DNA of 44,280 nt from a virus (IMGVR_UViG_3300041809_000597:1-44280); one strand, 5' to 3'; positions 6,579-23,484 are shown, counted from the stretch's first letter. Made by a program: numbers and translations. Notes: a model not told the origin generated them from the letters alone.

Positions 6579-7841
6579 ATGAATTCGTTCACGAAGACAC
6601 TTCTCGCATCAGCATCCTTCATTGCACTCGCGGCACCCACCGCGATGGCTCAGACCATAGTGCTCCCGACCAGCCCGAGCCTGGCGGGTCTCCCGGCTGG
6701 TGAGTCTGGCGCATCCATCGCTCCGACCCAGCAAACGGGCGTTGGCACCATCGCTTCTCCTGTTACCCCTGGCATTGCTGGCCTTCCGCCTGGCGAAGCT
6801 GGCACGTCCATTGCCCCGACGCAGCAAGTTCCGGTTCCGGCTACCGGCCCCGTGAGCCCGCTCACGGGCAGCGGCGCAAGCGGTGGGGCGACCATTCCCC
6901 AGGCTGCAATCAACAGCACCCAATTTGCGATCAACAACGCCCAGGCAGTAACCAACGCAGCCCAGGCGACGGAGAACACCACGCTCCAGAGCGGAATCAC
7001 CACCAACGCGAACACCATCAGCAGCAACGAAGCTGCCCAGGCTATCGTGAATACCGCTCAGGCCGCGACCAATACCAACCTGCAAGGTCAGATCACCACC
7101 AACTCTGACACGATCACGAGCAACGAAGCCGCCCAGGCTGTTGTGAATACCGCTCAGGCCGCGACCAATACCAACCTGCAAGGTCAGATCACCACCAACT
7201 CTGACACGATCACGAGCAACGAAGCCGCCCAGGCTGTTGTGAATACCGCTCAGGCCGCGACCAACGCAGCCCAGGTCACGACCAATACCGCTCAGGCAGC
7301 TACCAACGTTTCGCTCCAGAGCGGAATCCAATCGAACACCAGCCTCATCAATGCCGATGACGCCACGCTGACCAACCAGGAAGTCGGCACGATCTCTGCC
7401 GATGGCACGAACGTTACCCTCGGCAATGCTGCCTCGGGTTACACTGGTCCGGTTGCGCTGAACAATGTTGCGAACGGGTCGGTTTCTTCGGGCAGCACCC
7501 AGGCAATTAACGGTGGCCAGCTCTACGACGCGGAGCAGGGGTTCAACCAGCAGATCGCTGGCGTCAACCAGCAGATCGCTGGCCTGAACAGCCAGATTGG
7601 TAAGGTGGAACGCGCTGCTAATGCAGGCACCGCCGCTGCTATGGCTGTTCCGTCGCTCCCGATCCTGGCACCGGGCAAGGAATGGATCGGCGCTTCCTAT
7701 GGCGAGTATGCTGGCCAGAGTGCCCTTGGCGTTGGCTATGCTTACCAGATCAACAACCATTGGAATGTCGGCGCTGGCGTTTCGGTCCCGGTCACGGGCG
7801 GAAACATCGCGTTCAAGGTCCAGGCTGGCTACGAGTTCTAA
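6579..7841 (+). CDS. Trimeric-autotransporter-like (YadA-type) adhesin
   Basis: 420 residues, AAGGG seven bases upstream. A signal peptide (residues 1-25, ending TAMAQ) is followed by Pro/Gly-rich repeats LAGLPAGESGASIAPTQQ, a long Asn/Thr/Ala/Gln coiled-coil-like repeat region (about 110-250), and a stalk motif (LNNVANGSVSSGSTQAINGG) close to the connector that precedes YadA anchors. The C-terminal 70 residues (KEWIGASYGEYAGQSALGVG ... VQAGYEF) match the four-strand outer-membrane anchor and end in phenylalanine. Such proteins trimerise, insert their barrel and expose a fibre for binding surfaces. In a phage element this suggests conversion of the host surface. It lacks a recognisable YadA head and is short for the family. 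Confidence 0.85.
   Translation: MNSFTKTLLASASFIALAAPTAMAQTIVLPTSPSLAGLPAGESGASIAPTQQTGVGTIASPVTPGIAGLPPGEAGTSIAPTQQVPVPATGPVSPLTGSGASGGATIPQAAINSTQFAINNAQAVTNAAQATENTTLQSGITTNANTISSNEAAQAIVNTAQAATNTNLQGQITTNSDTITSNEAAQAVVNTAQAATNTNLQGQITTNSDTITSNEAAQAVVNTAQAATNAAQVTTNTAQAATNVSLQSGIQSNTSLINADDATLTNQEVGTISADGTNVTLGNAASGYTGPVALNNVANGSVSSGSTQAINGGQLYDAEQGFNQQIAGVNQQIAGLNSQIGKVERAANAGTAAAMAVPSLPILAPGKEWIGASYGEYAGQSALGVGYAYQINNHWNVGAGVSVPVTGGNIAFKVQAGYEF
7050..7241 (+). repeat. Two exact 96-bp tandem repeats in adhesin stalk
   Basis: The 96-base unit (32 codons, beginning NTAQAATNTNLQGQ and ending SNEAAQAVV) at 7050-7145 is repeated at 7146-7241 apparently without change; a third copy begins at 7242 and diverges. 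A related, more diverged unit precedes them. Exact nucleotide identity implies recent duplication and allows length variation of the stalk. Confidence 0.85.
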
Positions 7842-10836: not shown

Positions 10837-12119
10837 AAGAGCCAATAGATTTTGATGAGTACAAAGCCAAGAAAAAGGCTCGTGAGCATATGGGGTGGGT
10901 GAGCGAATGCCAGAAAACAGACTCTGGAAAGCCGATCCCAAATCTTGCCAGCGCATACTTAGGGTTGTCGCTCGACCCCCACCTAAGAGACCTCATCGGA
11001 TACGACGACATGGCCAAAAACAACTATCTCCTCAAGCCAATGCCTGAAGAAGTATTACACGCAATTGAGAATAGAATAGATAGTCAATCACACAAAAATG
11101 AGCCAAAATTACGCAAATATCCATCAATAATTACCGATGCTGATACAGATGTTATACAAAAATACTTACAAATTTGCGGTTTAACCCGCCTCGGAAAAGA
11201 ACCCGTCCAACAAGCAATCGGTCTGCGCGCTCAGCAAAATTACTATCACCCGCTAAAGACCTATCTGGAATCCCTGCAATGGGATGGAAACCGTAGGTTG
11301 CATGGATGGCTGAACGCATATCTCGGTGTCGAACACTCACCTTATGCCTCCCAGATCGGCACCATGTTCCTCATAGCTATGATCGCCCGTGTCTTCCAAC
11401 CTGGATGCAAGGCCGATTACATGCTTGTCCTGGAAGGTCCGCAAGGCGCTCTCAAATCCACGGCCTGCGCAACCCTGGCGGGAGCATGGTTCTCAGACAA
11501 CTTACCCGACCTCAACAAATCCGACCCCATCCGCCTCTCCATCCACCTCCGAGGAAAATGGCTCATCGAGATCGCGGAAATGTCCAGCTTCAACGCAACC
11601 GAATCCCACCGCCTCAAAGAGTTCATCACCCAACGCGAAGAACGATACACCCCAAAATTCGGCCGGAACGAAGTTTACGAACCCCGGCAATGCCTATTCA
11701 TCGGCACAACCAACCAATCTGTCTACCTAAAAGATGAAACTGGAGGTAGACGATTTTGGCCAGTCATTTGCGGCACCATCGACCTCGAAGCCCTAGCCCG
11801 TGACCGCGACCAGCTCCTGGCCGAAGCCGTCTCCCTATTCCAAAGCGGAGCGCACTGGTGGCCAGGCCGAGGCTTTGAGGCAGAGGTCATCAGACCACAG
11901 CAAGAAGCCCGGTACGAGGCTGACATTTGGGAGCGTATAATCCGCGATTACCTATCGGGTAGGTATGAAGTTACCACTTTGGAGATCGCAAACGTTGCGC
12001 TACAGATACAGGTGGGTATGATCCAGACAGCAACAAACAGGCGAATCGCAAGTATTCTCAGGAACTTAGGGTGGGTTTCTAAACATACAAATAAAGGAAC
12101 TGTCTGGGGACAAAAGTGA
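10833..12119 (+). CDS. VapE-family replication ATPase/helicase
   Basis: 428 residues, start set by the ATGA overlap. The C-terminal two-thirds is a virulence-associated-E type P-loop domain: Walker A EGPQGALKST (201-210), Walker B WLIEIAEM (243-250), sensor FIGTTN (289-294) and the family motif DETGGRRFWP (301-310). VapE proteins are SF3-like helicases in phage and island replication modules, often fused to a primase; here the N-terminal 150 residues show no primase signature. Likely acts at the element's replication fork. The stop codon lies inside the large terminator hairpin that follows. Confidence 0.9.
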   Translation: MKEPIDFDEYKAKKKAREHMGWVSECQKTDSGKPIPNLASAYLGLSLDPHLRDLIGYDDMAKNNYLLKPMPEEVLHAIENRIDSQSHKNEPKLRKYPSIITDADTDVIQKYLQICGLTRLGKEPVQQAIGLRAQQNYYHPLKTYLESLQWDGNRRLHGWLNAYLGVEHSPYASQIGTMFLIAMIARVFQPGCKADYMLVLEGPQGALKSTACATLAGAWFSDNLPDLNKSDPIRLSIHLRGKWLIEIAEMSSFNATESHRLKEFITQREERYTPKFGRNEVYEPRQCLFIGTTNQSVYLKDETGGRRFWPVICGTIDLEALARDRDQLLAEAVSLFQSGAHWWPGRGFEAEVIRPQQEARYEADIWERIIRDYLSGRYEVTTLEIANVALQIQVGMIQTATNRRIASILRNLGWVSKHTNKGTVWGQK

Positions 12120-12223
12120 CAGATGACAGTAAGTGACAGATAAAACCTTCTTGTGTGCCTTGTAATTTTCAGCGTCCACAAGAAGGTTTTATCTGTCACC
12201 ATCTGTCACCTGTCACTTTTTTT
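12112..12223 (+). terminator. Very large hairpin (44-bp arms) ending vapE operon
   Basis: Inner arms 12133-12155 and 12177-12199 are perfect over 23 bases around a 21-base loop. The pairing continues outward to 12112 and 12220 with only four mismatches in 44. Each arm repeats GTGACAGAT-like units. A T-run (12217-12223) follows, so it can act as an intrinsic terminator, but it is far larger than needed and contains the vapE stop codon. A replication-related or recombination role is possible. Confidence 0.8.
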
Positions 12224-12784: not shown

Positions 12785-13140
12785 AGCCCTGATGACCCAA
12801 CGGGCGCGTGCGGCGCGCATCATGTGCGGGCCTGGGTCCGCGTTCGGGTGGGTGGGTGCGCGCGTTCGCACGCGCTCATCCGCCTGCGCATCCGCGAACG
12901 CGAACGCGCACGGGTATTATATCTATCACGCCATCGGAAAACATTACTTCTCCGATGGTCCGGCAGAAAACCTAGCAATTCCAACGGGTTAGCGCGTGCG
13001 TTCGCATTCGGGCGTTGGTGCGTATATGCGCGAACACGCGAACGCGAACACGCAGATGCGCGGATATGCGCGCGAACACGCGAACGCGAACGCGTGAACG
13101 CACGCGAACGCACGAACGCGATTGCGCGATTGCGCAATTT
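12785..13140. repeat. GCGAACGCG-type repeat field, candidate origin
   Basis: About 350 bases dominated by short units such as CGCGAACGCG, GCGAACACGCG and GCGCGTTCGCACGCG in both orientations. The densest plus-orientation array is at 13029-13124, TTCG-oriented copies occur at about 12839-12870 and 12991-13010, and TTGCGCGATTGCGCAA follows near 13121-13137. An AT-rich interval in the middle carries the hairpin CCATCGGA/TCCGATGG (12931-12958). Long Arg-rich frames on both strands are by-products of the repeat. Iteron-like density and symmetry suggest a replication origin or a protein-binding array. Confidence 0.7.
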
Positions 13141-13167
13141 TGCGGTTGCAAAAAAAATTGCCGGGTG

Positions 13168-13680
13168 CTATTTGTCGCTAAATCGCGCCGCGTCGGTTTT
13201 GTCGGTCGGTAGTTTGCCAATCGCTGCCAATTTGTCGGGCCGCATCACTGCACGCGGATTGACGTATCGGGTCGCAGTATCCGGCGTCACAAGTTTTTTG
13301 GTTTTCTTCTCAAACGCGAGAATTGTAGAATCCATGCGCCGCTTGGCCATAGTCGCGCGCCCTCTCTCCGCTGCATCGCGCATCCTGGTCCGAATATTGT
13401 CGCGTCGCATCTGCGCCACCGCGTGCTCATGTGCCAGCTTTGGCAGCAATTCCGCCAGTATGGGCTTTAAACCCGTTTTAAGGGCCTGCCAGCGGCCTGC
13501 ACCAGTTCTGGCGAGCGAAGCTAGACTTTCATCGTCCAAGTCGCTGGAGGGGCATCCAGCGGCCCAGAAATGGCATGTTATCGCCAGTATGACCTTGTAG
13601 GTCGCACCCGAACAAAAAAACATGGCGCGATGCGTCAAAACGAGATCAACCGGCATCGGTAGCGGTCTAATTTTGGCCAT
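13168..13680 (-). CDS. DUF1376-like replication-associated protein (tentative)
   Basis: 170 residues. The N-terminal part (YKVILAITCHFWAAGCPSS, then DDESLASLARTGAGRWQALK) resembles the DUF1376/YdaU pattern of phage proteins, in which a helical domain precedes a basic tail and an acidic dipeptide leads into LARIARL..KRW. The C-terminal half is strongly basic (RTRMRDAAERGRATMAKRRM). Its 3' end points into the repeat field, so DNA binding near a replication origin would make sense. Family assignment is uncertain. Confidence 0.6.
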   Translation of the reverse strand: MAKIRPLPMPVDLVLTHRAMFFCSGATYKVILAITCHFWAAGCPSSDLDDESLASLARTGAGRWQALKTGLKPILAELLPKLAHEHAVAQMRRDNIRTRMRDAAERGRATMAKRRMDSTILAFEKKTKKLVTPDTATRYVNPRAVMRPDKLAAIGKLPTDKTDAARFSDK

Positions 13681-13728
13681 ACCGCCGGATTTACCCGCTT
13701 TTTTGCCAATTTACAAAAAAATCTCCAA

Positions 13729-13774
13729 ATCATCGGAAAACCCCATTGACCGCGAATTGCGATGATGCTTTAAG
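13729..13774 (+). promoter_or_regulatory. Promoter with CATCGG dyad (site B)
   Basis: TTGACC (13746-13751), 17 bases, TTTAAG (13769-13774). Half-sites ATCATCG (13729-13735) and CGATGAT (13760-13766) flank the -35 box. Drives the 13822 gene group. Confidence 0.55.
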
Positions 13775-13821
13775 CTGCCCATGCGTTGGCATGGTGCCGA
13801 AGCATTCAAGGGAATTACCCG

Positions 13822-14484
13822 ATGGCTAAATATCAAACCTTGTGCGAATTTCTGGCGGAAATGGGCGGTTTGCGTTCGTTCCGTGGCCAGATGGATACAA
13901 TCGGTTCATCCGATCTCCGCTCAATTGGCGCGGATGCGTGGCACAAGGCAAAACCTTTCCGTAAAAAGCTGGTTCGCCTGGAAACGGGTTTGACGCCGGA
14001 TGACGCGACGTTGGCGGCATGGAACGCGGGATATTTTCCGCAATTCTCCGAACGGCCAGAAGTTCAGGATTTGATCGATGCGATTGACGGTGAGCTGGCG
14101 GGTAAGCCGGTTTACACGTTGGATGATGCGCACGAGATTTTTAACGATGAGATGGCAGCGTATGAACGTGAAATGACAATGCAGGGTCTGCATGACTTGG
14201 CCGAAATTGATCCATCGGACGAATTCGAGGTCGCGCCATTTATTGACGTTCCAGGCCGCGCGATTCCGAAAAATTCGGAGTTAATTGTGGGCGCGAACGG
14301 CGAAGCGGTTTACATTTATTGTCAAATTTACATTAACAAAAAAGGATTTGAGGGTAAAACGTTTTACGCAAAAGCGTTCCGTGCGGGTGAAAAAAATCAC
14401 GATTGGCACAATGCTTTTGCATCGCACGAATTGCGCGAAGACAAGATTAACGAATTTTTTGCCTCAAGCCTGGAGCTGGTTTAA
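13822..14484 (+). CDS. Hypothetical protein
   Basis: 220 residues; ATG 13822 with AAGGGA nine bases upstream lies after the dyad-bearing promoter. Acidic, with an N-terminal helical region (YQTLCEFLAEMGGLRSFRG) and a C-terminal region rich in aromatic strands (EAVYIYCQIYINKKGF). No family recognised. The following gene starts on its last base. Confidence 0.7.
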   Translation: MAKYQTLCEFLAEMGGLRSFRGQMDTIGSSDLRSIGADAWHKAKPFRKKLVRLETGLTPDDATLAAWNAGYFPQFSERPEVQDLIDAIDGELAGKPVYTLDDAHEIFNDEMAAYEREMTMQGLHDLAEIDPSDEFEVAPFIDVPGRAIPKNSELIVGANGEAVYIYCQIYINKKGFEGKTFYAKAFRAGEKNHDWHNAFASHELREDKINEFFASSLELV

Positions 14485-14705
14485 TGCGTCGCCTAACTTG
14501 TAATATCCGTTGCCAAACTTCAATAAAACATATTTGCGAATGTCCTTGCGGCGGAAAAAATCATGGTCGCCTAATCGTCATGGCGTGTGACGATCCAGAT
14601 TCGAGCGCCGAACCGTTGCAGGTAATACAAGCGCGTTTGCGTCACAAGGCATTGCCGCTGCCGATTGTACCGCCGAACCCTAATCAATTCGATCTGTTTT
14701 TGTAA
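14484..14705 (+). CDS. Small cysteine-rich protein
   Basis: 73 residues beginning on the last A of the previous stop codon. The motif HICECPCGGKNHG (about residues 16-28) offers two or three cysteines and a histidine for metal binding; I recall this short CxCxCGG..HG pattern in small phage proteins of unknown role. C-terminus is Pro-rich and ends NQFDLFL, which resembles the DnaN sliding-clamp binding box (QxDLF), a point of inference. Confidence 0.65.
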   Translation: MRRLTCNIRCQTSIKHICECPCGGKNHGRLIVMACDDPDSSAEPLQVIQARLRHKALPLPIVPPNPNQFDLFL

Positions 14706-14715
14706 GGTTTTTGAT

Positions 14716-15081
14716 ATGTCAGAATTTACGTGCTGCAATGTTATCGATGGTTCCGATTGCTGGAATGACGCGACATGGAACGCGGATATCAAATCCGCTG
14801 ATCCTGATCTGGCGGGGATTAAATATACCGGATCGTATTGCACTGAATGCAAGCGCGCGGGGATATCCCGCAACGTTACGGCATGGCGGCGCATTGTACC
14901 GGCTTTGGTGCTGGAAGGTGGGGATGTATCGGCTGACACGTTTGCGCCGTCCAAACCAGCTCCTAGCGCGTTAAAACAGGCTTCCCTGTTTGCGATGCAC
15001 CATGACGCAAAACCAAACAAGATGGCGCGACATGCCGCGCCAACATTGATGGATTGGCTTGACGCTAACCCGTCAAAATAA
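14716..15081 (+). CDS. Cysteine-containing hypothetical protein
   Basis: 121 residues. ATG 14716 is chosen for the AAGG upstream. The first third contains paired cysteines (FTCCNVIDGSDCW, GSYCTECKRAG) that look like a treble-clef-like zinc site; the rest is low in signal and basic at the end. No known family. Followed by an intergenic promoter of the CCATCGGAA type. Confidence 0.6.
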   Translation: MSEFTCCNVIDGSDCWNDATWNADIKSADPDLAGIKYTGSYCTECKRAGISRNVTAWRRIVPALVLEGGDVSADTFAPSKPAPSALKQASLFAMHHDAKPNKMARHAAPTLMDWLDANPSK

Positions 15082-15091
15082 ATTTAAAAAA

Positions 15092-15135
15092 CCACCGGAA
15101 TTCCATTTGACAAGGTTTTCCGATGGCTCTATAGA
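15092..15135 (+). promoter_or_regulatory. Strong promoter with CCACCGGAA/TTCCGATGG dyad (site C)
   Basis: TTGACA (15107-15112), 17 bases, TATAGA (15130-15135). Half-sites CCACCGGAA (15092-15100) and TTCCGATGG (15118-15126) flank the -35 box. This is the best promoter of the dyad family. Confidence 0.75.
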
Positions 15136-15180
15136 CTGCATATGCGCTGGAATACACCGGCACAAAACACGGAGATACCG

Positions 15181-15411
15181 ATGAAGATTTTAAATGTTTG
15201 GCAGTATGAGGATTGCACCGGGCGAATCTGTAAAGGTGCAATGCTCGGATTTTCCGATTTTGGTGGTACGGACATAACATACCGATTCCATCGTTTAAAC
15301 GACAACGGTTTTCCGATTGTGCATGACAATGGTGGTATAACGTTGGATTTAGTTAGTGGTTCTCGCTTGAAAGCCGCAACACGAATCGGCAACGTGAAAA
15401 TTGAAGATTAA
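15181..15411 (+). CDS. Hypothetical protein
   Basis: 76 residues; ATG 15181 has GGAG seven bases upstream, whereas the in-frame ATG 15142 would lie right at the predicted transcription start. Beta-rich sequence (ILNVWQYEDCTGRICKGAML, ITYRFHRLNDNGFPIVHDN). No family recognised. First gene of a three-gene group. Confidence 0.65.
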   Translation: MKILNVWQYEDCTGRICKGAMLGFSDFGGTDITYRFHRLNDNGFPIVHDNGGITLDLVSGSRLKAATRIGNVKIED

Positions 15412-15434
15412 CCAAAAGTTTCGGGGATAAGATT

Positions 15435-15620
15435 GTGGATAAATTTACTGTTGAAATTGATTGCGGAAATGCAGCGTTCTATGAAGTTGATCGCGAGTAT
15501 GAGGTGGCAAGAATTTTGCGTGAATTGGCGGATTCGTTGGAATCTGGGCGGATCGGAAAGATTTACTTGCATGACTATAACGGCAACCGCGTTGGTGCAG
15601 CTAAATTCGAGGAATGCTAA
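15435..15620 (+). CDS. Small conserved phage protein
   Basis: 61 residues from GTG (MDKFTVEIDCGNAAFYEV, then EVARILRELADSLESGRIG and DYNGNRVGAAKFE). I recognise this layout as a small protein found widely in phages and alphaproteobacterial prophages, without known function. GGGGATAAG precedes the start. Confidence 0.75.
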   Translation: MDKFTVEIDCGNAAFYEVDREYEVARILRELADSLESGRIGKIYLHDYNGNRVGAAKFEEC

Positions 15621-15621
15621 A

Positions 15622-16047
15622 ATGATTTCGACGCAAAAATATGATGGCCTGATGATTTGCGCATTAACGCCAGAACAGCACGCCAGAACATGTGACTACT
15701 GGTACACCGTCACAACCCACGGGTTCACGACACATACCGCGTTCACCACGCGGGGCGCGTTGCTTGGGTGGCTGCATGAAAGGGGATTGACGATTGACGA
15801 TAGCGCCATCCCCGAACAGGGAAAACACGCTGTAGTACCCGTCAAGGGCGCGTATCGTACCGCGATGCACCTGGGCAGCTATGACGGATTTTTCGCGCTC
15901 CGGGGTCGTCGAACTAAGGTAATGTCGAACGCATCGGTAACGCTCGCAATCATTACCGATGATGAAGATGGTCTAAAAACGGTGCATTATCTAAACCCAA
16001 ACATGCAGGATCGCCCAGTTTTCCCCTGGTCTGATCTGCCAAAATAA
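15622..16047 (+). CDS. Hypothetical protein
   Basis: 141 residues; ATG 15622 follows GAGGA by eight bases and starts one base after the previous gene's stop. Residues 25-60 (DYWYTVTTHGFTTHTAFTTR GALLGWLHERGL in two parts) suggest an alpha/beta fold. No family recognised. Confidence 0.65.
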   Translation: MISTQKYDGLMICALTPEQHARTCDYWYTVTTHGFTTHTAFTTRGALLGWLHERGLTIDDSAIPEQGKHAVVPVKGAYRTAMHLGSYDGFFALRGRRTKVMSNASVTLAIITDDEDGLKTVHYLNPNMQDRPVFPWSDLPK

Positions 16048-16058
16048 ATTTAAAAAAA

Positions 16059-16101
16059 CCATCGGAATAGTGTTTGACATATCAATACCGATGGTTTAAA
16101 C
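16059..16101 (+). promoter_or_regulatory. Promoter with CCATCGGAA/TACCGATGG dyad (site D)
   Basis: TTGACA (16074-16079), with TTAAAC (16096-16101) 16 bases on. CCATCGGAA (16059-16067) and TACCGATGG (16086-16094) flank the -35 box, the same spacing as site C within one base. Confidence 0.65.
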
Positions 16102-16151
16102 CTTCTCATACATTGGCGATTGTGCCAACATTCACTTGGAAAGTACCAAAA

Positions 16152-16895
16152 ATGACTGAAAACAAAACCGCAATTCTCCGTCGCATTCGTGCTCTTGCCG
16201 CGAAAACTGTTGATAATGGTTGCACGGAGGAAGAGGCATTTAGCGCGGCGGCATTGCTGGCACGGTTGGTTGATAAATATGGTTTTTCACCTTCGGATAT
16301 CAACGAACCGGCTGAAAAATTGACAGAGGCGAAAATTCGTTCGACCGCGAACGCGCGTGCGAAGGAATGGTTTGCTATGGCGGTGGCCGTATATTGCGAT
16401 TGCGAGGTGTTGATGCGTCGCCTTGATACCAACAATCGCGAGTTGGTGTTCTTTGGCATGGAAACGGATGTTTTGATGTGTGAATATATCATGGCAATTC
16501 TTGATCGTGCGAATGAAACCGGGTTCAAAGCATTTTTGATGCAGGAGAAACTAAACGCGCCGTATGGTGCGAAAAAAACGCCAAAGGATATCTACCACGA
16601 CCGCAAGGCATTTGATGCGGGCATGGCGAATCGGGTAAATGCGCGGCTAAAAGAAATGAAAAATTCGCGTAATTCCACGGTGGATGAATCTACCGGGCAG
16701 ACGGGCGGTGCGTTGGTTATCGTAAAAAATGCGGTCGTATCGGAGGCATTTGCGGAAAAATACAAGCTCAGGCACCGCAAGAGCAGCACGAAAATCAATC
16801 ATCGTGGCAACGCATATGCTTCTGGTCAGCGCCAGGGCGATAGCGTGGCAATAAATCGCGGCGTCGGCGGCAGTTCGCAATTGCGTTTATCCTGA
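16152..16895 (+). CDS. DUF2786-domain protein
   Basis: 247 residues, GGAAAG upstream of ATG 16152. Residues about 8-50 (ILRRIRALAAKTVDNGCTEE, EAFSAAALLARLVDKYGFS) match the DUF2786 pattern of repeated Ala-rich helices ending in KYG. The rest (WFAMAVAVYCDCEVLMRR, VLMCEYIMAILDRANETGF, AFDAGMANRVNARLKEM) follows the usual downstream helical region of phage members. Biochemical role unknown. C-terminus is basic and Gly/Ser-rich. Transcribed from the site D promoter. Confidence 0.8.
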   Translation: MTENKTAILRRIRALAAKTVDNGCTEEEAFSAAALLARLVDKYGFSPSDINEPAEKLTEAKIRSTANARAKEWFAMAVAVYCDCEVLMRRLDTNNRELVFFGMETDVLMCEYIMAILDRANETGFKAFLMQEKLNAPYGAKKTPKDIYHDRKAFDAGMANRVNARLKEMKNSRNSTVDESTGQTGGALVIVKNAVVSEAFAEKYKLRHRKSSTKINHRGNAYASGQRQGDSVAINRGVGGSSQLRLS

Positions 16896-16917
16896 TTGGA
16901 GTTTTTTATTAAATAGG

Positions 16918-16984
16918 TTGACGGTGGCGGGCGGGTGGGGATATCCTGCCCGTCGCTGAAATATAACTTGGAATTGTCCAAGTT
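16918..16984 (+). promoter_or_regulatory. Promoter and 8-bp palindrome before 17003 gene
   Basis: TTGACG (16918-16923), 18 bases, TATCCT (16942-16947), followed by the perfect palindrome AACTTGGA-ATTG-TCCAAGTT (16965-16984). A GC-rich imperfect hairpin (CGGGCGGG/CCTGCCCG) overlaps the promoter. The palindrome may be an operator or leader hairpin. Confidence 0.45.
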
Positions 16985-17002
16985 CGGATTGGAATTTTAC
17001 CA

Positions 17003-17293
17003 ATGAAAAAATTACATAATAAAATGCGTGTCGATTTTTTCGATAATGCTGAGAGCGGCCAGCGCAAGGTCAGCGTGCAGATCATCGATGCGGTGGAATT
17101 CGATCAGGTATTGCTTGTCGATGACCTGGCGGCGGTGTTTAAGCGCCTTGGCGGGGTGCTGCGGGCTGTTGCGGTGGCCTATGGGTGGCTGGTAGCTCAT
17201 CCCCGCTTGGCGCTGTTGTGCGGCGTCATGGCGGCTTCTATGGCCACAATGTTCGCCGGTATGGTGGCTTACTATTTCGGGCTTTCCGGTTAA
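17003..17293 (+). CDS. Small membrane protein
   Basis: 96 residues. Basic and acidic N-terminal 60 residues (MRVDFFDNAESGQRKVSVQI) then a hydrophobic stretch from about 62 to 94 (HPRLALLCGVMAASMATMFA, GMVAYYFGL) that can form one or two membrane helices. No strong ribosome-binding site (GGA only). Function unknown. Confidence 0.65.
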   Translation: MKKLHNKMRVDFFDNAESGQRKVSVQIIDAVEFDQVLLVDDLAAVFKRLGGVLRAVAVAYGWLVAHPRLALLCGVMAASMATMFAGMVAYYFGLSG

Positions 17294-17298
17294 AGAAG

Positions 17299-17342
17299 CA
17301 TCAGCAATTGCGTTGACGCGGTTGTTGTCGGTGATGTACTAA
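17299..17342 (+). promoter_or_regulatory. Promoter with degenerate dyad (site F)
   Basis: TTGACG (17313-17318), 18 bases, TACTAA (17337-17342). CATCAGCAA (17299-17307) and TTGTCGGTGATG (17325-17336) occupy the positions of the dyad half-sites in the neighbouring promoters, but the match is loose. A GGCTGG/CCAGCC hairpin (17351-17368) follows in the leader. Confidence 0.4.
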
Positions 17343-17388
17343 GTTCTTACGGCTGGAGTTCACCAGCCTAGCATATGGAGTTTACCAA

Positions 17389-17811
17389 ATGTCTGCATTT
17401 CTCATTAACCCAGATACCATGAATAAAGTGATTCGCGCGATTTGCGCGCCAGCGTATTATCGCCCGCACAATCGCATGTTCGCGGGTTATAACGTTGACC
17501 GTTCAAACTCTTGGGACAAGATTGGAAGGGCCTTGTTCGCGTTGAATGTTGAGGCGGTAAGCCAACGCTACCCGAGCGAACGCGGGAAGTTCCACACATT
17601 TGAAGAGTACCGATTTGAGGGAATCCCGTACATGCGGGATCGGTCGGAGATCGTTTCTTGCTACAAGGCCGCGCAGTGCTTGGCGTATCAGTGCAGCGAG
17701 GGAAATGTTCCAGAGGAGGCAATTTATAAAGAATTGCGCGACATTATTTTGGAATTGCAGGAACGCATTGTCGCGGAATTGGATGAATACAAGGCGGCGG
17801 ATTGGGGATAG
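17389..17811 (+). CDS. Hypothetical protein
   Basis: 140 residues, GGAG eight bases before ATG. Soluble, alpha/beta in character (MFAGYNVDRSNSWDKIGRAL, YKAAQCLAYQCSEGNVPE, then a helical C-terminus). The sequence looks well conserved and similar in style to hypothetical proteins on alphaproteobacterial phages and plasmids, but I cannot name a family. Confidence 0.7.
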   Translation: MSAFLINPDTMNKVIRAICAPAYYRPHNRMFAGYNVDRSNSWDKIGRALFALNVEAVSQRYPSERGKFHTFEEYRFEGIPYMRDRSEIVSCYKAAQCLAYQCSEGNVPEEAIYKELRDIILELQERIVAELDEYKAADWG

Positions 17812-17819
17812 GGATCAGG

Positions 17820-18044
17820 ATGACAAATAGGATTAGGGAATTGAAGGTGGTGAAAAAAACTATTGTTCGCAGGTTCCAGAAGGGGCAGGCGATCAGGTAT
17901 GTTGGAAACAATAACATGTACGGGCGGATCGGTAGCATCGATGGGTTTACCTCTCCAACGCGCTACAGGGTAATTCTTGAAGGGCGGTATTACACGGTAT
18001 CACAAGACAACATTGAGGCTTTCAGCGGGTCGGAAAATGGCTAG
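17820..18044 (+). CDS. Small beta-rich protein
   Basis: 74 residues from ATG 17820 (an upstream TTG is less likely). Basic N-terminus, then QAIRYVGNNNMYGRIGSIDG and YRVILEGRYYTVSQDNIEAF, a pattern suggesting a small SH3-like beta barrel. Function unknown. Confidence 0.6.
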   Translation: MTNRIRELKVVKKTIVRRFQKGQAIRYVGNNNMYGRIGSIDGFTSPTRYRVILEGRYYTVSQDNIEAFSGSENG

Positions 18045-18095
18045 GATGCACATTCGTATTCCTGATCGGGTGTTTTGATTTTTAGAGTAGAGGGA

Positions 18096-18121
18096 CCGGC
18101 ACACGGTGCCGGGTTCTTTCT
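18096..18121 (+). terminator. Terminator after small-gene cluster
   Basis: CCGGCA (18096-18101), five-base loop, TGCCGG (18107-18112), then GTTCTTTCT. Moderately convincing. Confidence 0.5.
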
Positions 18122-18123
18122 CG

Positions 18124-18281
18124 TGGTGGATGATGTTGCGCTATTTTGGTTTAGTTTGGTTTGCGGCTTGGTGTTGTGTTCGATTGCGGTTTTCCTGTTT
18201 GCTCGAATCTCCAGGAGCGGGAGATTTTGCCGAACAAACCCCGCTAGACCTGATTCAAATTTTGGGGGCATAGATGAATAA
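18124..18281 (+). CDS. Possible small membrane protein
   Basis: 52 residues from GTG 18124 (VVDDVALFWFSLVCGLVLC, then SIAVFLFARIS and a basic tail): one clear membrane helix with positive residues after it. It overlaps the next gene by eight bases, as others here do. No ribosome-binding site is seen and a longer version from TTG 18075 would run through the terminator, so its reality is uncertain. Confidence 0.4.
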
Positions 18282-18567
18282 AAATCTACCGGCTAAGCCG
18301 CAAGAGCTGATTGCGCGGGATATTGTTAAGGCGATTGCAATGAACATTGGAAAGGACGTGGCATTTCACATAGAAACCATGTATCCGCTGGCCGTTTCTG
18401 CCACGTCAAGAAGTATGCTGTTGTCGGTCAGGAACGCGGTCTATAATGAAATTATGGCGGCTCTGGATGTGACAGATGAGACAGAAATTTTGGCCCGCCT
18501 GCAACGTCGCAAGGCGCATCGGAGGGAGATAAAAGCTATGATGAAAGCCGGGACACGCGGGCCATGA
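18274..18567 (+). CDS. Hypothetical protein
   Basis: 97 residues, GGGGG before ATG. Helical throughout (PQELIARDIVKAIAMNIGKD, SVRNAVYNEIMAALDV, LARLQRRKAHRREIKAMM) with a basic C-terminus. Coupled by ATGA to the helix-turn-helix gene that follows. No family recognised. Confidence 0.65.
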   Translation: MNKNLPAKPQELIARDIVKAIAMNIGKDVAFHIETMYPLAVSATSRSMLLSVRNAVYNEIMAALDVTDETEILARLQRRKAHRREIKAMMKAGTRGP

Positions 18568-18794
18568 CGCCACTTGCACGATACCTTGAGATAATCAGAT
18601 GGTCCTCCGGTGATCTGGCGGACCATTTTGGCATCAACAAGAGGACGGTTTTTCGTTGGCTAAATGGTCAAAATGATACGCCGGACAACGTTCTTGTATG
18701 GGCAAGGGAATTGGCGGAATTTCATCTTGCGCACGGCTTGCCGGATGGGTGGGTGTCAAACAACAATAACGATTTCAAATCGATTGGGGATTGA
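18564..18794 (+). CDS. Helix-turn-helix DNA-binding protein
   Basis: 76 residues. MTPLARYLEIIRWSSGDLAD, HFGINKRTVFRWLNGQNDTP is a clear helix-turn-helix (residues about 13-40) of the small phage type, with a helical tail (ELAEFHLAHGL). Likely a transcriptional regulator of the element. The next promoter overlaps its stop codon. Confidence 0.75.
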   Translation: MTPLARYLEIIRWSSGDLADHFGINKRTVFRWLNGQNDTPDNVLVWARELAEFHLAHGLPDGWVSNNNNDFKSIGD

Positions 18795-18821
18795 CAGGGA
18801 GGAAACGTCCAAGGTTATGTT
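18791..18821 (+). promoter_or_regulatory. Candidate promoter of SlyB-like gene
   Basis: TTGACA (18791-18796), 19 bases, TATGTT (18816-18821), followed by a small GTTGA-TTCG-TCAAC hairpin in the leader. The long spacer lowers certainty. Confidence 0.4.
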
Positions 18822-18846
18822 GATTCGTCAACAATGGGAGTTCACT

Positions 18847-19374
18847 ATGCGTTCTAATAAGTTGGGTTTTCTCTCGGTTTCCGCTATTATACTGTTGGCT
18901 GGTTGTCAGCAACCAGGCGCAGACCTGGGGGCAAATGTCTACGATGCGAGCCAAGTCAACCAGAATCAAAACGCTAAAGTGATTGATATTGTCACGATTG
19001 CCCCCGCCCAGATTAAGGTCAGCAACGCTCAAAACCAGAAGACTGCGGAAGTCGCTGGTAGCATTTTGGGTGCTGTTGGCGGGGGTCTGTTGGGCAATAG
19101 CTTGAGCGGCGGCATGGTGCGCGGTAGCAATACCGTTGGCGGTGCAGCATTGGGGGGCATCGCAGGAGCGGCGGCGGGGTCGTTGGTTTCATCAACGGCG
19201 CTGGTTGATGGCGTGACAATCGGTTACAATGAGGACGGTTCAATTCATACTTCGACGCAGGTTGGCGAAATGTGCCAATTTAAGCAGGGTCGGGCTCTGG
19301 TTGTGATGACGCAGGAAAATGAAACCCGCGTGCAACCAAATACAGATTGCCAGAAGCCTACCAACAACGGCTAA
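18847..19374 (+). CDS. SlyB-like glycine-zipper outer-membrane lipoprotein
   Basis: 175 residues, GGGAG six bases before ATG. A lipoprotein signal (MRSNKLGFLSVSAIILLAGC) has its acylated cysteine at 20. After a linker comes a glycine-zipper segment (SILGAVGGGLLGNSLSGG, VGGAALGGIAGAAAGSLV), typical of the SlyB/Rcf2-like outer-membrane family, and a short C-terminal beta domain with two cysteines. Such proteins support outer-membrane integrity under stress. Carriage by a phage element is unusual and could alter host envelope traits. Confidence 0.8.
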   Translation: MRSNKLGFLSVSAIILLAGCQQPGADLGANVYDASQVNQNQNAKVIDIVTIAPAQIKVSNAQNQKTAEVAGSILGAVGGGLLGNSLSGGMVRGSNTVGGAALGGIAGAAAGSLVSSTALVDGVTIGYNEDGSIHTSTQVGEMCQFKQGRALVVMTQENETRVQPNTDCQKPTNNG

Positions 19375-19403
19375 TTTTCACTCCATAAAAAATTGGATTA
19401 ACG

Positions 19404-20027
19404 ATGAAAATTCTTGCGACCGCTGTAGTCTTCACCGCTTTGGCCGGGGCTTGTTATGCCCAGAATTCCGACTCCGGCCCAATTGTTGGGCTTGCTGCTT
19501 TGGCGGCAGCGCAGGACCAGGATCAAGCGGAAGCTGCGGCGGCGCAAGCAGCCGAGGAGCAGGCGAGAGCGCAGGCAGAGGCCCGCGCCGAAGCGCAACA
19601 GGCAGCAGTTGAACGTCGGGCAGCAGCGCAACAGGCAGCAGCAAATGCTGAGGCAGAAGCCGATAAGCAGCGCAACGAAAAATACCAGGATAAGTTGCGA
19701 GATATTAACCTTGAACGACAACAGATTGATCTGGAAAAGGAGCAAACTGATGTCAATCGGGAAAACGACATTATCAATGCGCAGTTGAAGGCGCAGAATG
19801 CGCAAACAGATGTAACGCAATCTCAGGCCGATGCGGCGCGCACACTGGCGCAGGGCCAGGCAACGGCAGAGGTTACAGAGGCGCAGGGTGACAAGACGTT
19901 GGATAGTGACGTGGGTGCGGCTGTAGTGACCCGCGCGCAGGGTGCGGCAACGCTCGACACTGACAAAGGCAAGGCGGATGTGAAGAAAGCCGGTGGCTTT
20001 CTAAACAATAGTGCGGGCGGCAGTTAA
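19404..20027 (+). CDS. Exported Ala/Gln-rich coiled-coil protein
   Basis: 207 residues with a signal peptide (MKILATAVVFTALAGACYAQ). Residues 35-145 are a long Ala/Gln/Glu/Arg coiled coil (AEARAEAQQAAVERRAAAQQ), followed by Thr/Ala-rich repeats (DAARTLAQGQATAEV, GDKTLDSDVGAAVV, TRAQGAATLDTDKGK). It resembles what I recall as DUF5384-type periplasmic proteins, tentatively. Convergent with, and overlapping by four bases, the GcrA-like gene. Probably co-transcribed with the SlyB-like gene. Confidence 0.75.
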   Translation: MKILATAVVFTALAGACYAQNSDSGPIVGLAALAAAQDQDQAEAAAAQAAEEQARAQAEARAEAQQAAVERRAAAQQAAANAEAEADKQRNEKYQDKLRDINLERQQIDLEKEQTDVNRENDIINAQLKAQNAQTDVTQSQADAARTLAQGQATAEVTEAQGDKTLDSDVGAAVVTRAQGAATLDTDKGKADVKKAGGFLNNSAGGS

Positions 20028-20398
20028 CCTACCTTTAACCGCATTGGCACGTAGGCTTTAGCATGATGTTTCGCGCAATAGCGGCTTCCAGGCTTTAGGT
20101 TATCGCCGCAAAATCGGAACTCTGGAGTTCTCGGGGTTCCGATTGGCCATTGGCAAGTTTCAGCGGACCTTTTTAGGGTCGGCGCTGGAGCTGGTGGGTT
20201 GCGCGGCCTCGGTGCCGACTGCGTTTCTGTATGCTTTGGCGGCAATTCGCCTGGTGGTCCAAGGCGGCGAGTTTTTCGGCTCACGCTCTCGACCGTGCGG
20301 CCCATTTGGCGCGCAATGTCTGATGTTTTGACCTTTTTTTCTCGCAAATCCCGAAGTTTTCTAACTTCGTCGTCGGTCCACGGCTTGGAATTTATCAT
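20024..20398 (-). CDS. GcrA-like cell-cycle regulator
   Basis: 124 residues, start set by ATGA overlap with the preceding gene and AAGG upstream. The N-terminus (SKPWTDDEVRKLRDLREKKV, then TSDIARQMGRTVESVSRKTR) is the GcrA/Myb-like helix-turn-helix; after a Pro-rich linker the C-terminus has CQWPIGTPRTPEFRFCGDN and SRYCAKHHAKAYVP, the characteristic GcrA sigma70-interaction domain. In Alphaproteobacteria GcrA binds sigma70 and activates promoters carrying CcrM-methylated GANTC. A phage copy could reprogramme the host cell cycle or serve the phage's own promoters. The N-terminal half is more diverged than the C-terminal one. Confidence 0.85.
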   Translation of the reverse strand: MINSKPWTDDEVRKLRDLREKKVKTSDIARQMGRTVESVSRKTRRLGPPGELPPKHTETQSAPRPRNPPAPAPTLKRSAETCQWPIGTPRTPEFRFCGDNLKPGSRYCAKHHAKAYVPMRLKVG

Positions 20399-20559
20399 AG
20401 TTCGCCTTGTGTCATCCTTAGAAGGCCACATTGCGCACAAATTACGGAATCGTCTACTGTTTCGCAATGGCATCGTTCGCTAGTCATGGGTTTGAACTCG
20501 TTGAACCTCATGTGACGCAAGGCCCTACTGGCTTTTGGCGGCGGGAAACGTCTTTTCAT
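20395..20559 (-). CDS. 54-residue Cys-rich protein in ATGA-coupled operon
   Basis: MKRRFPPPKASRALRHMRFN then a region with four cysteines (RCHCETVDDSVICAQCG), a likely zinc site. Its ATG overlaps the stop of the RusA-like gene (ATGA) and its own stop overlaps the ATG of the GcrA-like gene in the same way, filling the gap between them exactly. That double coupling is strong evidence for a real gene despite its size. Function unknown; a small partner in transcription or DNA binding is conceivable. Confidence 0.8.
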   Translation of the reverse strand: MKRRFPPPKASRALRHMRFNEFKPMTSERCHCETVDDSVICAQCGLLRMTQGEL

Positions 20560-21089
20560 GTTATGCGGCCCAAGTCGCGGATTCGGACAATAGTTCTTTG
20601 CTCGGCGCGGTTTTTTGCCTGCACATGTTGGATGTCGGATCGCAAATGCGTTGGATCATCCCCGGCGATGATGCCCAGCCCATAGGGGTGGCGCGCGGAT
20701 CGGGGCTGTAGAAGGTCCAAGAGGAATTTCCGGCTTTCCTGTAGGTTGTCTTCATCTGGCCGTTTCAGAGAATAGCGGAGAATACTCACGGACGCGAAGG
20801 TAAGCGGGCTTTTTGGTGCGCTGGTGATTGCCCGCGATACCTCATCGGATAACTCATGTATCGCGGCACTTTTTTTTGACCAGTGCATATTTTTTTTCAC
20901 GTTGGGCAATAGGAGCGGCCTGGAGAGGGTTATGGTGATATCTGGGTGTATCTGCCCGCCTAATTGCTGCACCGCACCGGGGGGCTTCTGGGCGGCTTTC
21001 TCTGGCCATTTTGCGGGCAGTGCGGCCTGTTCCTGGCCAGCTCTGCGGCGCTCGTAGTCTCTCAGCCACGCTTCATCGAATCTGGCCAT
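20556..21089 (-). CDS. RusA-like Holliday junction resolvase
   Basis: 177 residues. The C-terminal domain (about residues 50-177) shows the RusA layout: a basic start (LSRPLLLPNVKKNMHWSKKS), then RPDEDNLQESRKFLLDLLQP and GLGIIAGDDPTHL, corresponding to the DxDN...K...DxL...DD signature whose aspartates bind the metal. RusA resolves Holliday junctions late in phage recombination. The N-terminal 45 residues are an extra basic, Ala/Pro-rich extension. It overlaps the upstream regulator gene and is coupled to the next one. Pairing with the ERF/YqaJ module across the divergent promoter fits a recombination set. Confidence 0.75.
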   Translation of the reverse strand: MARFDEAWLRDYERRRAGQEQAALPAKWPEKAAQKPPGAVQQLGGQIHPDITITLSRPLLLPNVKKNMHWSKKSAAIHELSDEVSRAITSAPKSPLTFASVSILRYSLKRPDEDNLQESRKFLLDLLQPRSARHPYGLGIIAGDDPTHLRSDIQHVQAKNRAEQRTIVRIRDLGRIT

Positions 21090-21324
21090 GCCCCGCGTGC
21101 TCTCGTGCTTGCGTGTGCTGCACGCGCTTACTTGGCGATTTGCTGACTAAATCTGTTATGGTCATTGACCAATCTTTTTCCCTGGCAATGTCGATTACCT
21201 TTTGCCAGTACAGGGGTGGGATACCGCGCGTTTTCCAGTGTCCGATGCAGATTACAGACACGCCGAATGCTTCCGCCGCATTTTTTGCTGGCCCGAATCT
21301 GTCAAGGAATTCGTGGTGATCCAT
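21073..21324 (-). CDS. Phage helix-turn-helix regulator (carph-isopro-like)
   Basis: 83 residues from ATG 21324; a TTG at 21342 is an alternative and neither has a good site. MDHHEFLDRFGPAKNAAEAF, then GVSVICIGHWKTRGIPPLYW, is the short helix-turn-helix of the kind annotated as carph-isopro or YdaS/Cro-like in prophages (residues 4-45). Divergent from the ERF operon with two operator-like palindromes between them, it is the best candidate for the element's early-gene repressor, binding ATCC-N5-GGAT. That pairing is inferred from position. Confidence 0.75.
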   Translation of the reverse strand: MDHHEFLDRFGPAKNAAEAFGVSVICIGHWKTRGIPPLYWQKVIDIAREKDWSMTITDLVSKSPSKRVQHTQAREHAGHGQIR

Positions 21325-21392
21325 GTAAAAAAATAGTTCCAAAAAGGATAAAAAGTCAAGTTATTTGCTATATGTCTTTCAAAATCTCGCCA

Positions 21393-21445
21393 ATCCAAAT
21401 TGGAACAGAATTTACTTTGACCAGGTATCCCAAACGGATTAGATT
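21393..21445 (+). promoter_or_regulatory. ERF-operon promoter with two operator palindromes
   Basis: TTGACC (21417-21422), 17 bases, TAGATT (21440-21445). The spacer contains ATCCCAAACGGAT (21427-21439) and a second element ATCCAAATTGGAA lies just upstream (21393-21405). The region divides the early operon from the divergent regulator gene, like a phage immunity switch. Confidence 0.7.
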
Positions 21446-21488
21446 TACCAAGTCTAAAAATTAAGAAAAATTTGGAGCGATGTTCGTT

Positions 21489-22253
21489 ATGAATGATATC
21501 GTCAGAACTGACACGCCCGAATCTGTGTCCCTGTTAAATATCATTGCCGAGGCTGCGCGCAATCCAGAAACCAACATAGCCAATCTGGAGGCGTTGTTAA
21601 AAATGCAGCGGGAGGTTTTGGCGGATCAGGCAAAGATTGCATTCACCCGCGCGCTATGGAGGCTGAAAAAAGACCTTCCCCACGTCAGCAAGGACGGCAC
21701 AATTGATCTGGGTGTGAAGGGAAAAATGAAGTTTGCCAGATGGGAAGATATGGCAAAAATCACTGAGCCTTTAATGGATCGCGAGGGGTTTACGCTCTCG
21801 TTTGATACTGAGGAACGCAACAGGGACGGCGGCGGCTCTGTCGTCATTGGCGAGCTGACACATGTTGACGGGCATAGTAAGAAGGCGCGGTTTAGCCTTC
21901 CGCTGGATACCGGCCCAGGAAGAAACAACCTCCAGGCGGCTGCTTCAACGCTCAGCTATGGGAAGCGGTACGTGGCTGAAATGCTGTTAAACATCGTGCG
22001 CAAGGGCGATGATGATGATGGGGTGGCGGGCGGAAAACGGTACATAACAACAGCAAAGAAAGAAGAAATAGTTAAGCTGTTGCAGGAAACGGATTCGGAT
22101 GTGACGGCATTTTTGCGTCATTTTGGCGTAGAGAGTGTCGATGAGATCGAGAGCAAAAACGAGGTCGTGGTTATCAATTCGCTTGTCTCCAAAAAACTAA
22201 AAATGGAAGCCAAGAAAAATGAAGGAAGTACAGGTACAACAGGGGTCGCCTGA
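21489..22253 (+). CDS. ERF-family single-strand annealing protein
   Basis: 254 residues. ATG 21489 is preferred over 21480 because GGAG is only two bases from the latter. Pattern of the ERF family: FTRALWRLKKDLPHVSKDGT near residue 50, FARWEDMAKITEPLMDREGF near 83, then GSVVIGELTHVDGHSKKARF and LQAAASTLSYGKRYVAEMLL (about 145-165), the family hallmark. ERF proteins coat and anneal single-stranded DNA in phage recombination. The acidic tail overlaps the exonuclease gene by 35 bases, an arrangement typical of a Red-like annealase/exonuclease pair. Confidence 0.9.
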   Translation: MNDIVRTDTPESVSLLNIIAEAARNPETNIANLEALLKMQREVLADQAKIAFTRALWRLKKDLPHVSKDGTIDLGVKGKMKFARWEDMAKITEPLMDREGFTLSFDTEERNRDGGGSVVIGELTHVDGHSKKARFSLPLDTGPGRNNLQAAASTLSYGKRYVAEMLLNIVRKGDDDDGVAGGKRYITTAKKEEIVKLLQETDSDVTAFLRHFGVESVDEIESKNEVVVINSLVSKKLKMEAKKNEGSTGTTGVA

Positions 22254-22896
22254 ATGGATCGCCGCGCGCCTTGGAATCCCAACAGCATCAAATTTCGATA
22301 AAATTTTAACACCTGGCGGAAAATTATCAGAGTCTGCGCGGAAATTCGCTTACTACCTGGCGGCGGAACACCTGTTAAATCGCCAACTGGATAGCCTGGA
22401 TTATCTCGAATGGGTGGCGCGCGGCAAAGAGCTGGAGCCGGATGCCGTCCAGAATTACGAATTTTTGCAGGATGTAAAAACGCGCAAGGTCGGGTTTATA
22501 ACCACAAATGATGGCCGCATAGGGGCCTCCCCGGATCGCCTTATCGTCGGCGCAAATGGTGGCCTGGAGATCAAATGCCCGTCGCCCCAGGTTCATGTCG
22601 GGTATATGATCGATGGGTTTGGAAAGGCATACAAGGTCCAAGTCCAGGGACAAATGTACGTGGCCGAACTAGATTTCGTGGATCGATATTCGTTCCATCC
22701 TGAAATGCCGCCGTTTCTGGAGCGAACGGTGCGGGATGAACCGTTCATAACCCAACTGGCAGATGCGCTGAACCAGTTTTCAGATGACCTGGCAGAGATC
22801 ATACGCAAGGCAAAGGCATCTGGGTTTTTTCAGGATCGTGTTGCCATGCTATCGGCGCATGACGATGCGTACCAACAAAATCTAGGGGATGAATGA
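22219..22896 (+). CDS. YqaJ-like 5'-3' exonuclease
   Basis: 225 residues. VQQGSPEWIAARLGIPTASN is the conserved start of the YqaJ/lambda-exonuclease family; ARGKELEPDAVQNYEF, then IGASPDRLIVGANGGLEIKC (about residues 96-115) supplies the D...E-x-K nuclease core, and VQVQGQMYVAELDFVDRYSF follows. It degrades double-stranded ends to make substrate for the annealing protein encoded just before it; the two overlap. Together with the RusA-like resolvase they form a complete recombination set. Confidence 0.9.
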   Translation: MKEVQVQQGSPEWIAARLGIPTASNFDKILTPGGKLSESARKFAYYLAAEHLLNRQLDSLDYLEWVARGKELEPDAVQNYEFLQDVKTRKVGFITTNDGRIGASPDRLIVGANGGLEIKCPSPQVHVGYMIDGFGKAYKVQVQGQMYVAELDFVDRYSFHPEMPPFLERTVRDEPFITQLADALNQFSDDLAEIIRKAKASGFFQDRVAMLSAHDDAYQQNLGDE

Positions 22897-22899
22897 ATA

Positions 22900-23244
22900 A
22901 TGCGAGACCTTCGGCAACTCGAAAAATACCGCACGATAGGCCAGCCAAATAGGCCAGAGGAAATGCAGTATGGCGGGGCTTTTCGGGTCGTCCACAAAGG
23001 AAACGTGCTCCGAATTATCGCGTCGAATGACGCTGGATGGGACCACGTATCGATTAGCCGAATGACAGCCTGCCCTAGCTGGGAAGATATGGAATTTGTG
23101 AAGCGTATGTTTTTCGAGGAGGGCGAGTTGTGTTGGCAATACCACGTCCCGGTGGGCGACCATATCAACATAAACCCCCATGTTCTGCACATATGGCGAA
23201 AACACGACTTTGAAATGCCGCTACCGCCGAGGTGGATGGTCTAA
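22900..23244 (+). CDS. DUF7694-like phage protein
   Basis: 114 residues beginning three bases after the exonuclease. AFRVVHKGNVLRIIASNDAG WDHVSISR and CPSWEDMEFVKRMFFEEGE, then an Asn-His rich HININPHVLHIWR, match a small protein that is common near phage recombination or early genes and is annotated as DUF7694 to my recollection. It ends LPPRWMV. Function unknown. Confidence 0.7.
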   Translation: MRDLRQLEKYRTIGQPNRPEEMQYGGAFRVVHKGNVLRIIASNDAGWDHVSISRMTACPSWEDMEFVKRMFFEEGELCWQYHVPVGDHININPHVLHIWRKHDFEMPLPPRWMV

Positions 23245-23435
23245 TGTCCGAACCCGTCACAGTTCTAGCAGAATGGATAAAGTCACACCCGAACGCACAT
23301 TCAAAACTCGAAATTGTGGGCGATCATGTAGTTTTGACTTTTGGGCCAAAATCCCGCGAGCTGCCTTTCCCGGCGTGGCTTTGGCTGATTCCGATGCTTT
23401 GGCCGGTGTTATTTTTTTTAAGTCCGCGCCGATAG
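23244..23435 (+). CDS. Small C-terminally anchored membrane protein
   Basis: 63 residues, ATG sharing a base with the previous stop. Soluble N-terminal 43 residues (MSEPVTVLAEWIKSHPNAHS), then one C-terminal membrane helix (FPAWLWLIPMLWPVLFFL) and a terminal basic SPRR. Function unknown. Confidence 0.6.
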   Translation: MSEPVTVLAEWIKSHPNAHSKLEIVGDHVVLTFGPKSRELPFPAWLWLIPMLWPVLFFLSPRR

Positions 23436-23450
23436 TTTGCCCTTGCGCGA

Positions 23451-23484
23451 CCATCGGAGTTAAATTATATAATAATTCCGATGG
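23451..23484 (+). promoter_or_regulatory. CCATCGGA dyad around a TATAAT box (site E)
   Basis: CCATCGGA (23451-23458) and TCCGATGG (23477-23484) enclose a perfect TATAAT (23468-23473); the -35 is weak (TTGCGC, 19 bases away). The right half-site merges with GGAGG, the ribosome-binding site of the gene at 23493, so the same sequence could also fold as an mRNA hairpin. Confidence 0.5.

Follow-up and report, generated by a model that had tools for sequence, protein, structure and literature searches.

The closest described analogue of the promoter unit analyzed here is the ESAS/SAS system of cluster K mycobacteriophages, in which an imperfect inverted repeat surrounds a SigA-like promoter with 17-18 bp between the hexamers and recurs before several small non-structural genes that are not related to one another, and for which the regulator is not known (PMC3203893; PMC11373665). 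Linked to it is the start-associated SAS, in which GG...CC symmetry surrounds the Shine-Dalgarno (SD) sequence; the ESAS arms do not act as an RNA hairpin, and the repeat consensus differs between subclusters (PMC3203893; PMC11373665). Aca proteins are small helix-turn-helix (HTH) proteins that repress early host-takeover genes via inverted repeats inside the core promoter (PMC9410906). In archaeal viruses, a single virus-specific promoter motif lies before numerous small early (anti-defence) genes, and some of these viruses add an inverted repeat that has been interpreted as a repressor site (PMC11065993). The locus described here shares with those viruses the logic of one motif before many small early genes, but theirs are archaeal TATA/BRE promoters. 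The PeSLs of T4-type phages (Arbiol et al. 2010) are said to combine an early promoter with a stem-loop in a portable unit between exchangeable small genes.

The DNA analyzed was a virus record of 44,280 bases (the window), whose products include a helicase (10755), a large terminase (TerL; 26418) and a major head protein (32896), with a weak portal match at 29131, an exonuclease encoded at 22219 and an annealing protein of the Erf type at 21480. An approximately 96-base tandem repeat (6996-7264) lies inside a 420-aa ORF (6579-7841). No annotated phage was matched by megablast with the window, and the annotated terminase closest to its TerL is 36% identical. The relatives of its terminase and capsid are other uncultured phages; they are not T4-type, and no mycobacteriophage is among the matches listed for these two proteins. 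The phage group is unrelated to mycobacteriophages. Its host is probably alphaproteobacterial, as suggested by one phage gene:

20024-20473, minus strand: phage-encoded GcrA-like regulator (Pfam E value, 7e-19)

Relatives were traced via the terminase. These were G006 (TerL 77% identical), a 57.7-kb contig that is syntenic with the window and circularly permuted, and G002.

Three units in the window, termed cassettes, share a common order: an A-rich stretch, an arm CATCGGAA, 6-7 nt, TTGACA, 5-6 nt, an arm TTCCGATG, 3-4 nt, and a -10 box resembling TATAAN, with a promoter spacer of 17 bp. Most cassettes continue into a leader, in which a 5' hairpin precedes a mini-hairpin that contains the SD, and then into the gene. 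The first-pass annotation, which lacked the leader hairpins in its description of the unit, had placed half-sites that are all present in the sequence where it gave them, and its claim that they flank TTGACx at nearly fixed distances held in all three members of the strong group (13730, 15092 and 16059), in which arms 17-18 bp apart are centered on a TTGAC -35, with 6-7 nt from left arm to -35 and 5-6 nt from -35 to right arm.

13731..13774, plus strand: cassette 1 promoter-operator, syntenic with G006:54281; left arm CATCGGAA 13731-13738, -35 TTGACC 13746-13751, right arm TTGCGATG 13757-13764, -10 TTTAAG 13769-13774
13783..13821, plus strand: cassette 1 leader; 5' hairpin 13783-13803, SD mini-hairpin GGGAATTACCC 13810-13820, then ATG 13822 (220-aa protein)
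15093..15135, plus strand: cassette 2 promoter-operator; left arm CACCGGAA 15093-15100, -35 TTGACA 15107-15112, right arm TTCCGATG 15118-15125, -10 TATAGA 15130-15135
15144..15180, plus strand: cassette 2 leader; 5' hairpin 15144-15163, SD mini-hairpin CGGAGATACCG 15170-15180, then ATG 15181 (76-aa protein)
16060..16102, plus strand: cassette 3 promoter-operator; left arm CATCGGAA 16060-16067, -35 TTGACA 16074-16079, right arm TACCGATG 16086-16093, -10 TAAACC 16097-16102
16112..16151, plus strand: cassette 3 leader; 5' hairpin ATTGGCGATTGTGCCA 16112-16127 plus flanking pairs, SD mini-hairpin TTGGAAAGTACCAA 16136-16149, then ATG 16152 (DUF2786/DUF7168 protein)

Like ESAS/SAS, the cassette joins an inverted repeat and -35/-10 sigma70-type hexamers 17-18 bp apart in one conserved unit that is repeated within a genome, and it sets a dyad-wrapped promoter and a GG..CC start-site hairpin before unrelated small genes. 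The two differ in sequence, in arm length (8-12 bp here versus 15-17 in ESAS), in gap (17-18 bp here versus about 4-14), in the extra 5' hairpin and in phage group. The SAS consensus GGGATAGGAGCCC, located 3-7 nt before the start codon, was not found; the SD mini-hairpin here is of the TGGAGAAACCA type, with GG..CC around the SD, 0-5 nt before the ATG. Because of these differences in the SAS sequence, arms, gap and phage group, we regard the cassette as working like ESAS/SAS and do not class it as a member. The first-pass annotation knew of no such motif, which stands for the sequence itself but not for the design, which is known from the ESAS/SAS elements.

The dyad search pattern was CCATCGGAA-N(4-30)-TTCCGATGG, allowing no more than one mismatch in total, and the window was compared with 100 dinucleotide shuffles of itself. 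Four dyads were found in the window (12931, gap 10; 15092, gap 17; 16059, gap 18; and 23451, gap 16) versus none in the 100 shuffles. With up to three mismatches, 7 were observed in the window versus 0.72 expected. The 13730 pair, with a gap of 18 and three mismatches in all, is borderline if taken alone; its syntenic copy, G006:54281, adjoins the same minus-strand gene, and both of its 8-base arms are perfect. A dyad at 20112 was set aside as most likely a coincidence, as it lies within the GcrA-like coding sequence. Exact 8-mer half-sites were 16 times denser between genes (0.83/kb) than within them (0.05/kb), with gene limits taken from our own ORF choices, the opposite of the equal frequency that the first-pass annotation had named as evidence against the motif.

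A -35 between the arms and a -10 at 17 bp were present in 10 of 10 cassettes (three in the window, six in G006 and one in G002), and in all 10 the arms lie on either side of the -35 and extend into the spacer between -35 and -10, so that the putative operator overlaps the promoter. It is probable, judging from the sequence, that the cassettes constitute an early-gene regulon, in which a dimeric phage repressor would sit across the -35 of sigma70 promoters that carry its operators. That the promoters are active, early and repressed is predicted, as is the identity of the regulator, and the genes are presumed to be early from their position and type. Host RNA polymerase would read the cassette promoters at once on infection. 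A phage dimeric DNA-binding protein would occupy both arms (about -49 to -42 for the left, about -23 to -16 for the right) and cover the -35, and at a later stage of infection or during dormancy it would shut off the early units jointly. Through the leader hairpins, mRNA stability and translation start would be made uniform. The cassette is a portable unit set before unrelated small genes, which one phage repressor would most likely switch together.

The first-pass annotation had proposed one regulator for several small-gene operons. The conserved geometry, the recurrence of the same units in related phages and the unrelated downstream genes speak for this, and binding by a single regulator stays a prediction. 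A simple promoter scan of the window did not flag the cassette promoters because their -10 boxes are weak, and this is a real caveat on the promoter reading. Weak -10 boxes, together with the rigid distances from the arms to the -35 and -10 in the strong group, would suit an activator site, at which RNA polymerase is recruited or remodeled by an arm-bound protein of phage or host origin, making the genes a later, activated class. This is unlikely. The right arm lies between the -35 and -10, under the polymerase, and the 23451 dyad stands in another register relative to its promoter, which an activator would hardly tolerate; a near-consensus -35, 17-bp spacing and promoter overlap in more than one register favor a repressor. 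Arm spacing varies among the dyads (10, 16, 17 and 18), which is unusual for a rigid dimer and counts against one.

Dyads were found in three genomes, the window, G006 and G002, a small number that counts against the repressor reading. G006 has six cassettes with the same layout (1203, 1710, 2843, 54281, 55644 and 56908), and G002 has one of the same geometry (G002:1003). The first-pass annotation had called for a motif scan of the genome and its relatives, and matrices recovered the same units in both directions. With a matrix from the window's three sites, all six G006 cassettes ranked above every background site, and with one from G006 and G002, exactly the window's three sites ranked first; through the dyad symmetry, some sites score on the opposite strand too. 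Among 2.9 million viral contigs, the precise cassette pattern was present only in G006. The exact wide dyad had six other matches in all viral contigs, none with TTGAC between the arms plus a leader after them. Twenty-six matches to the cassette in bacterial genomes look like chance, as they are without A-tract and leader and many share one apparently coding sequence. More distant phages with a DUF2786 protein were also scanned, and the promoter dyad was present in none of these except G006 and G002. Searches through the 13168 and 13822 proteins found no relatives. As far as the collections searched reach, the motif belongs to this phage group.

The 5' end of the leader, GCGCTGGC, forms its stem with a 3' arm that differs between cassettes (GCCGGTGC and GTTAGCGC among others). 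Relative to shuffles, leader folding is more stable than that of other gene starts of the window (P = 4e-4). The G006:2843 and G002:1003 cassettes are without the two-hairpin leader. Two further leaders in the window are associated with no dyad or a decayed one:

16918..17002, plus strand: promoter TTGACG-N18-TATCCT with two-hairpin leader and without dyad, before gene 17003
17300..17388, plus strand: cassette with decayed dyad; -35 TTGACG 17313-17318, 5' hairpin GGCTGG..CCAGCC 17351-17368, SD mini-hairpin from 17376, before gene 17389

The second of these had been annotated as a looser dyad copy (17299/17325); its leader identifies it as a real cassette, but the dyad itself is badly decayed. 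In a more distant phage, L079, the leaders are kept, the dyad is absent, and other palindromes occupy the promoter spacer. Homologous early genes at L079 7654 and 8781 have the spacer palindromes TGTGAG..CTCACA and ACATCA..TGATGT, with TTTTCGAT directly 5' of the -35. From the leaders without dyads, including those of L079, we infer that the leader may be the constant part of the unit and that the operator changes with the regulator. A more elaborate possibility is a two-level switch, in which one small phage HTH protein would repress at the dyad and also read the leader hairpins on the mRNA, with the cassette labeling exchangeable host-takeover/anti-defence genes; we consider this speculative and unlikely.

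The proteins encoded behind the dyad cassettes have no mutual similarity. The two ends of the G006 contig (L033 1-2557 and L035 14330-17754) are variant copies of one early region, in which the first gene and the last block are common to both and the genes between differ, and one homology block between the variants begins inside a cassette. The same cassette precedes unrelated genes, with PeSL-like gene exchange at cassette borders, in variants that may be two strains of one sample joined in assembly. The cassette also resembles PeSLs in being a portable promoter and stem-loop unit between small genes. It differs in that the inverted repeat encloses the -35, the stem-loops are in the leader and the phage is not T4-type. 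Intergenic stem-loop units of another kind, AACGCTTAA...TTAAACGTT with different stems, lie between small genes of G006 (L033 about 440-720 and L035 about 16100-16560).

The exchanged gene content, the homology block that begins in a cassette, the unrelated cargo and the phage's Erf-like annealing protein and exonuclease would fit a cassette that serves mainly as a seam at which genomes recombine, as has been proposed for the PeSL cassettes of T4-type phages, and only secondarily in regulation. However, conservation is focused on the arms, the -35 and the stems of the leader instead of extending along one contiguous block, a pattern not expected from recombination-driven selection by itself, and the G006 evidence carries the possible joining of strains noted above. 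We consider this reading improbable.

Arm deviations from consensus were one-sided in 8 cases and two-sided in 4, with 5 pairs broken. Two-sided changes, such as those at G006:1710 (CATCGGGG/CCCCGATG) and G006:2843 (CATCGGGA/TCCCGATG), would be expected if the dyad were a cruciform or RNA hairpin rather than a protein site, but the loop would measure 17-18 nt, and with both arms upstream of the predicted transcription start this promoter would make no RNA copy of them. Because the arms vary mostly independently and both lie upstream of that start, a protein reading half-sites is favored, and nucleic-acid structure is a still poorer explanation than a recombination seam. Chance matches or recent functionless duplicates, for which only the individual weakness in relatives of the looser members (12931, 23451 and 17299) speaks, are the least credible reading of all and are refuted for the strong group by the absence of dyads from the shuffles, the cross-genome recovery and the retention of arms, -35 and leader stems between flanks too diverged to be recognized.

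Two weaker members, also listed in the first-pass annotation, are present with other spacing, as it had claimed, but they are placed differently relative to promoters:

12932..12957, no strand assigned: short-gap dyad CATCGGAA-N10-CTCCGATG, located among non-coding repeats on the downstream side of gene 13168-13680, with TATAAT adjoining on the minus strand
23452..23483, plus strand: dyad CATCGGAG-N16-TTCCGATG; left arm between the -35 (TTGCGC 23443-23448) and the -10 (TATATA 23466-23471), right arm reaching into the SD of the KTSC-domain gene 23493

Both are significant in the window itself. The first has a counterpart at the same gene position and with the same gap of 10, G006:53504, that is weakly significant (P about 0.02-0.05). 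Counterparts of the second at the same gene position in G006, G002 and G005 are diverged and weakly significant (P about 0.009). Where the helicase gene ends, a 109-base imperfect palindrome (12112-12220; 82% identical to its own reverse complement) lies close to the GCGAACGC-type repeat field (12800-13130) and is possibly replication-related.

Four regulators had been named as candidates for the protein that binds the dyads (7997, 18564, 21073 and 30972), and 18564 is the best of them. Candidates were ranked by conservation alone, and none of them could be tied to the motif.

18564..18794, plus strand: gp18564, an HTH protein of 76 aa and candidate regulator, conserved in each of the three dyad phages
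13168..13680, minus strand: alternative candidate regulator, 170-aa protein, its gene lying between two dyads in the window as well as in G006

Homologues of 18564 in all three dyad phages are 54-58% identical, and its predicted fold is an HTH domain (pLDDT of >90 over the first 50 residues). Its best PDB neighbors are the anti-CRISPR repressor Aca2, with a non-significant E value of about 0.1 and a very common fold. A dyad at the start of its own gene was not found. This protein is tentatively the most likely regulator of the dyad. Like acr-aca systems, the cassettes have inverted repeats within the core promoter, on which a small HTH protein would act, but acr-aca has one acr operon per site versus many dispersed units here, and the dyad gap here is much longer. 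With libraries that hold few such families, none of the early genes was recognized as a known acr or aca. The 13168 protein had no Pfam match, and its structure model (pLDDT 60) was uninformative; matches of its alignment to PDB profiles of designed proteins were judged meaningless. Our impression is that it resembles DUF1376/replisome organizers.

The other three named candidates are less likely. The 7997 protein has no homologue in G006, although G006 has the same operators, and 30972 comes after the portal gene and partly matches small terminases. The 21073 gene adjoins a different palindrome family of its own, TCCAnnnTGGA. In five related phages this family lies next to the divergent 21073/21480 promoters, and in the window and G006 it also precedes the 5247 gene. 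The TCCA(A/T)3-4TGGA palindromes (listed at window 21393, 5129, 655, 12234 and 6512) form a second operator-like family and are probably the operator of 21073.

A second system, unrelated to mycobacteriophages, makes the question of what reads such dyads testable. If the two-level switch were true, a motif scan would list the host-takeover/anti-defence genes of this uncultured phage group. Searching for the cassette sequence is a simple way to list genes that are candidates for early interaction with the host.
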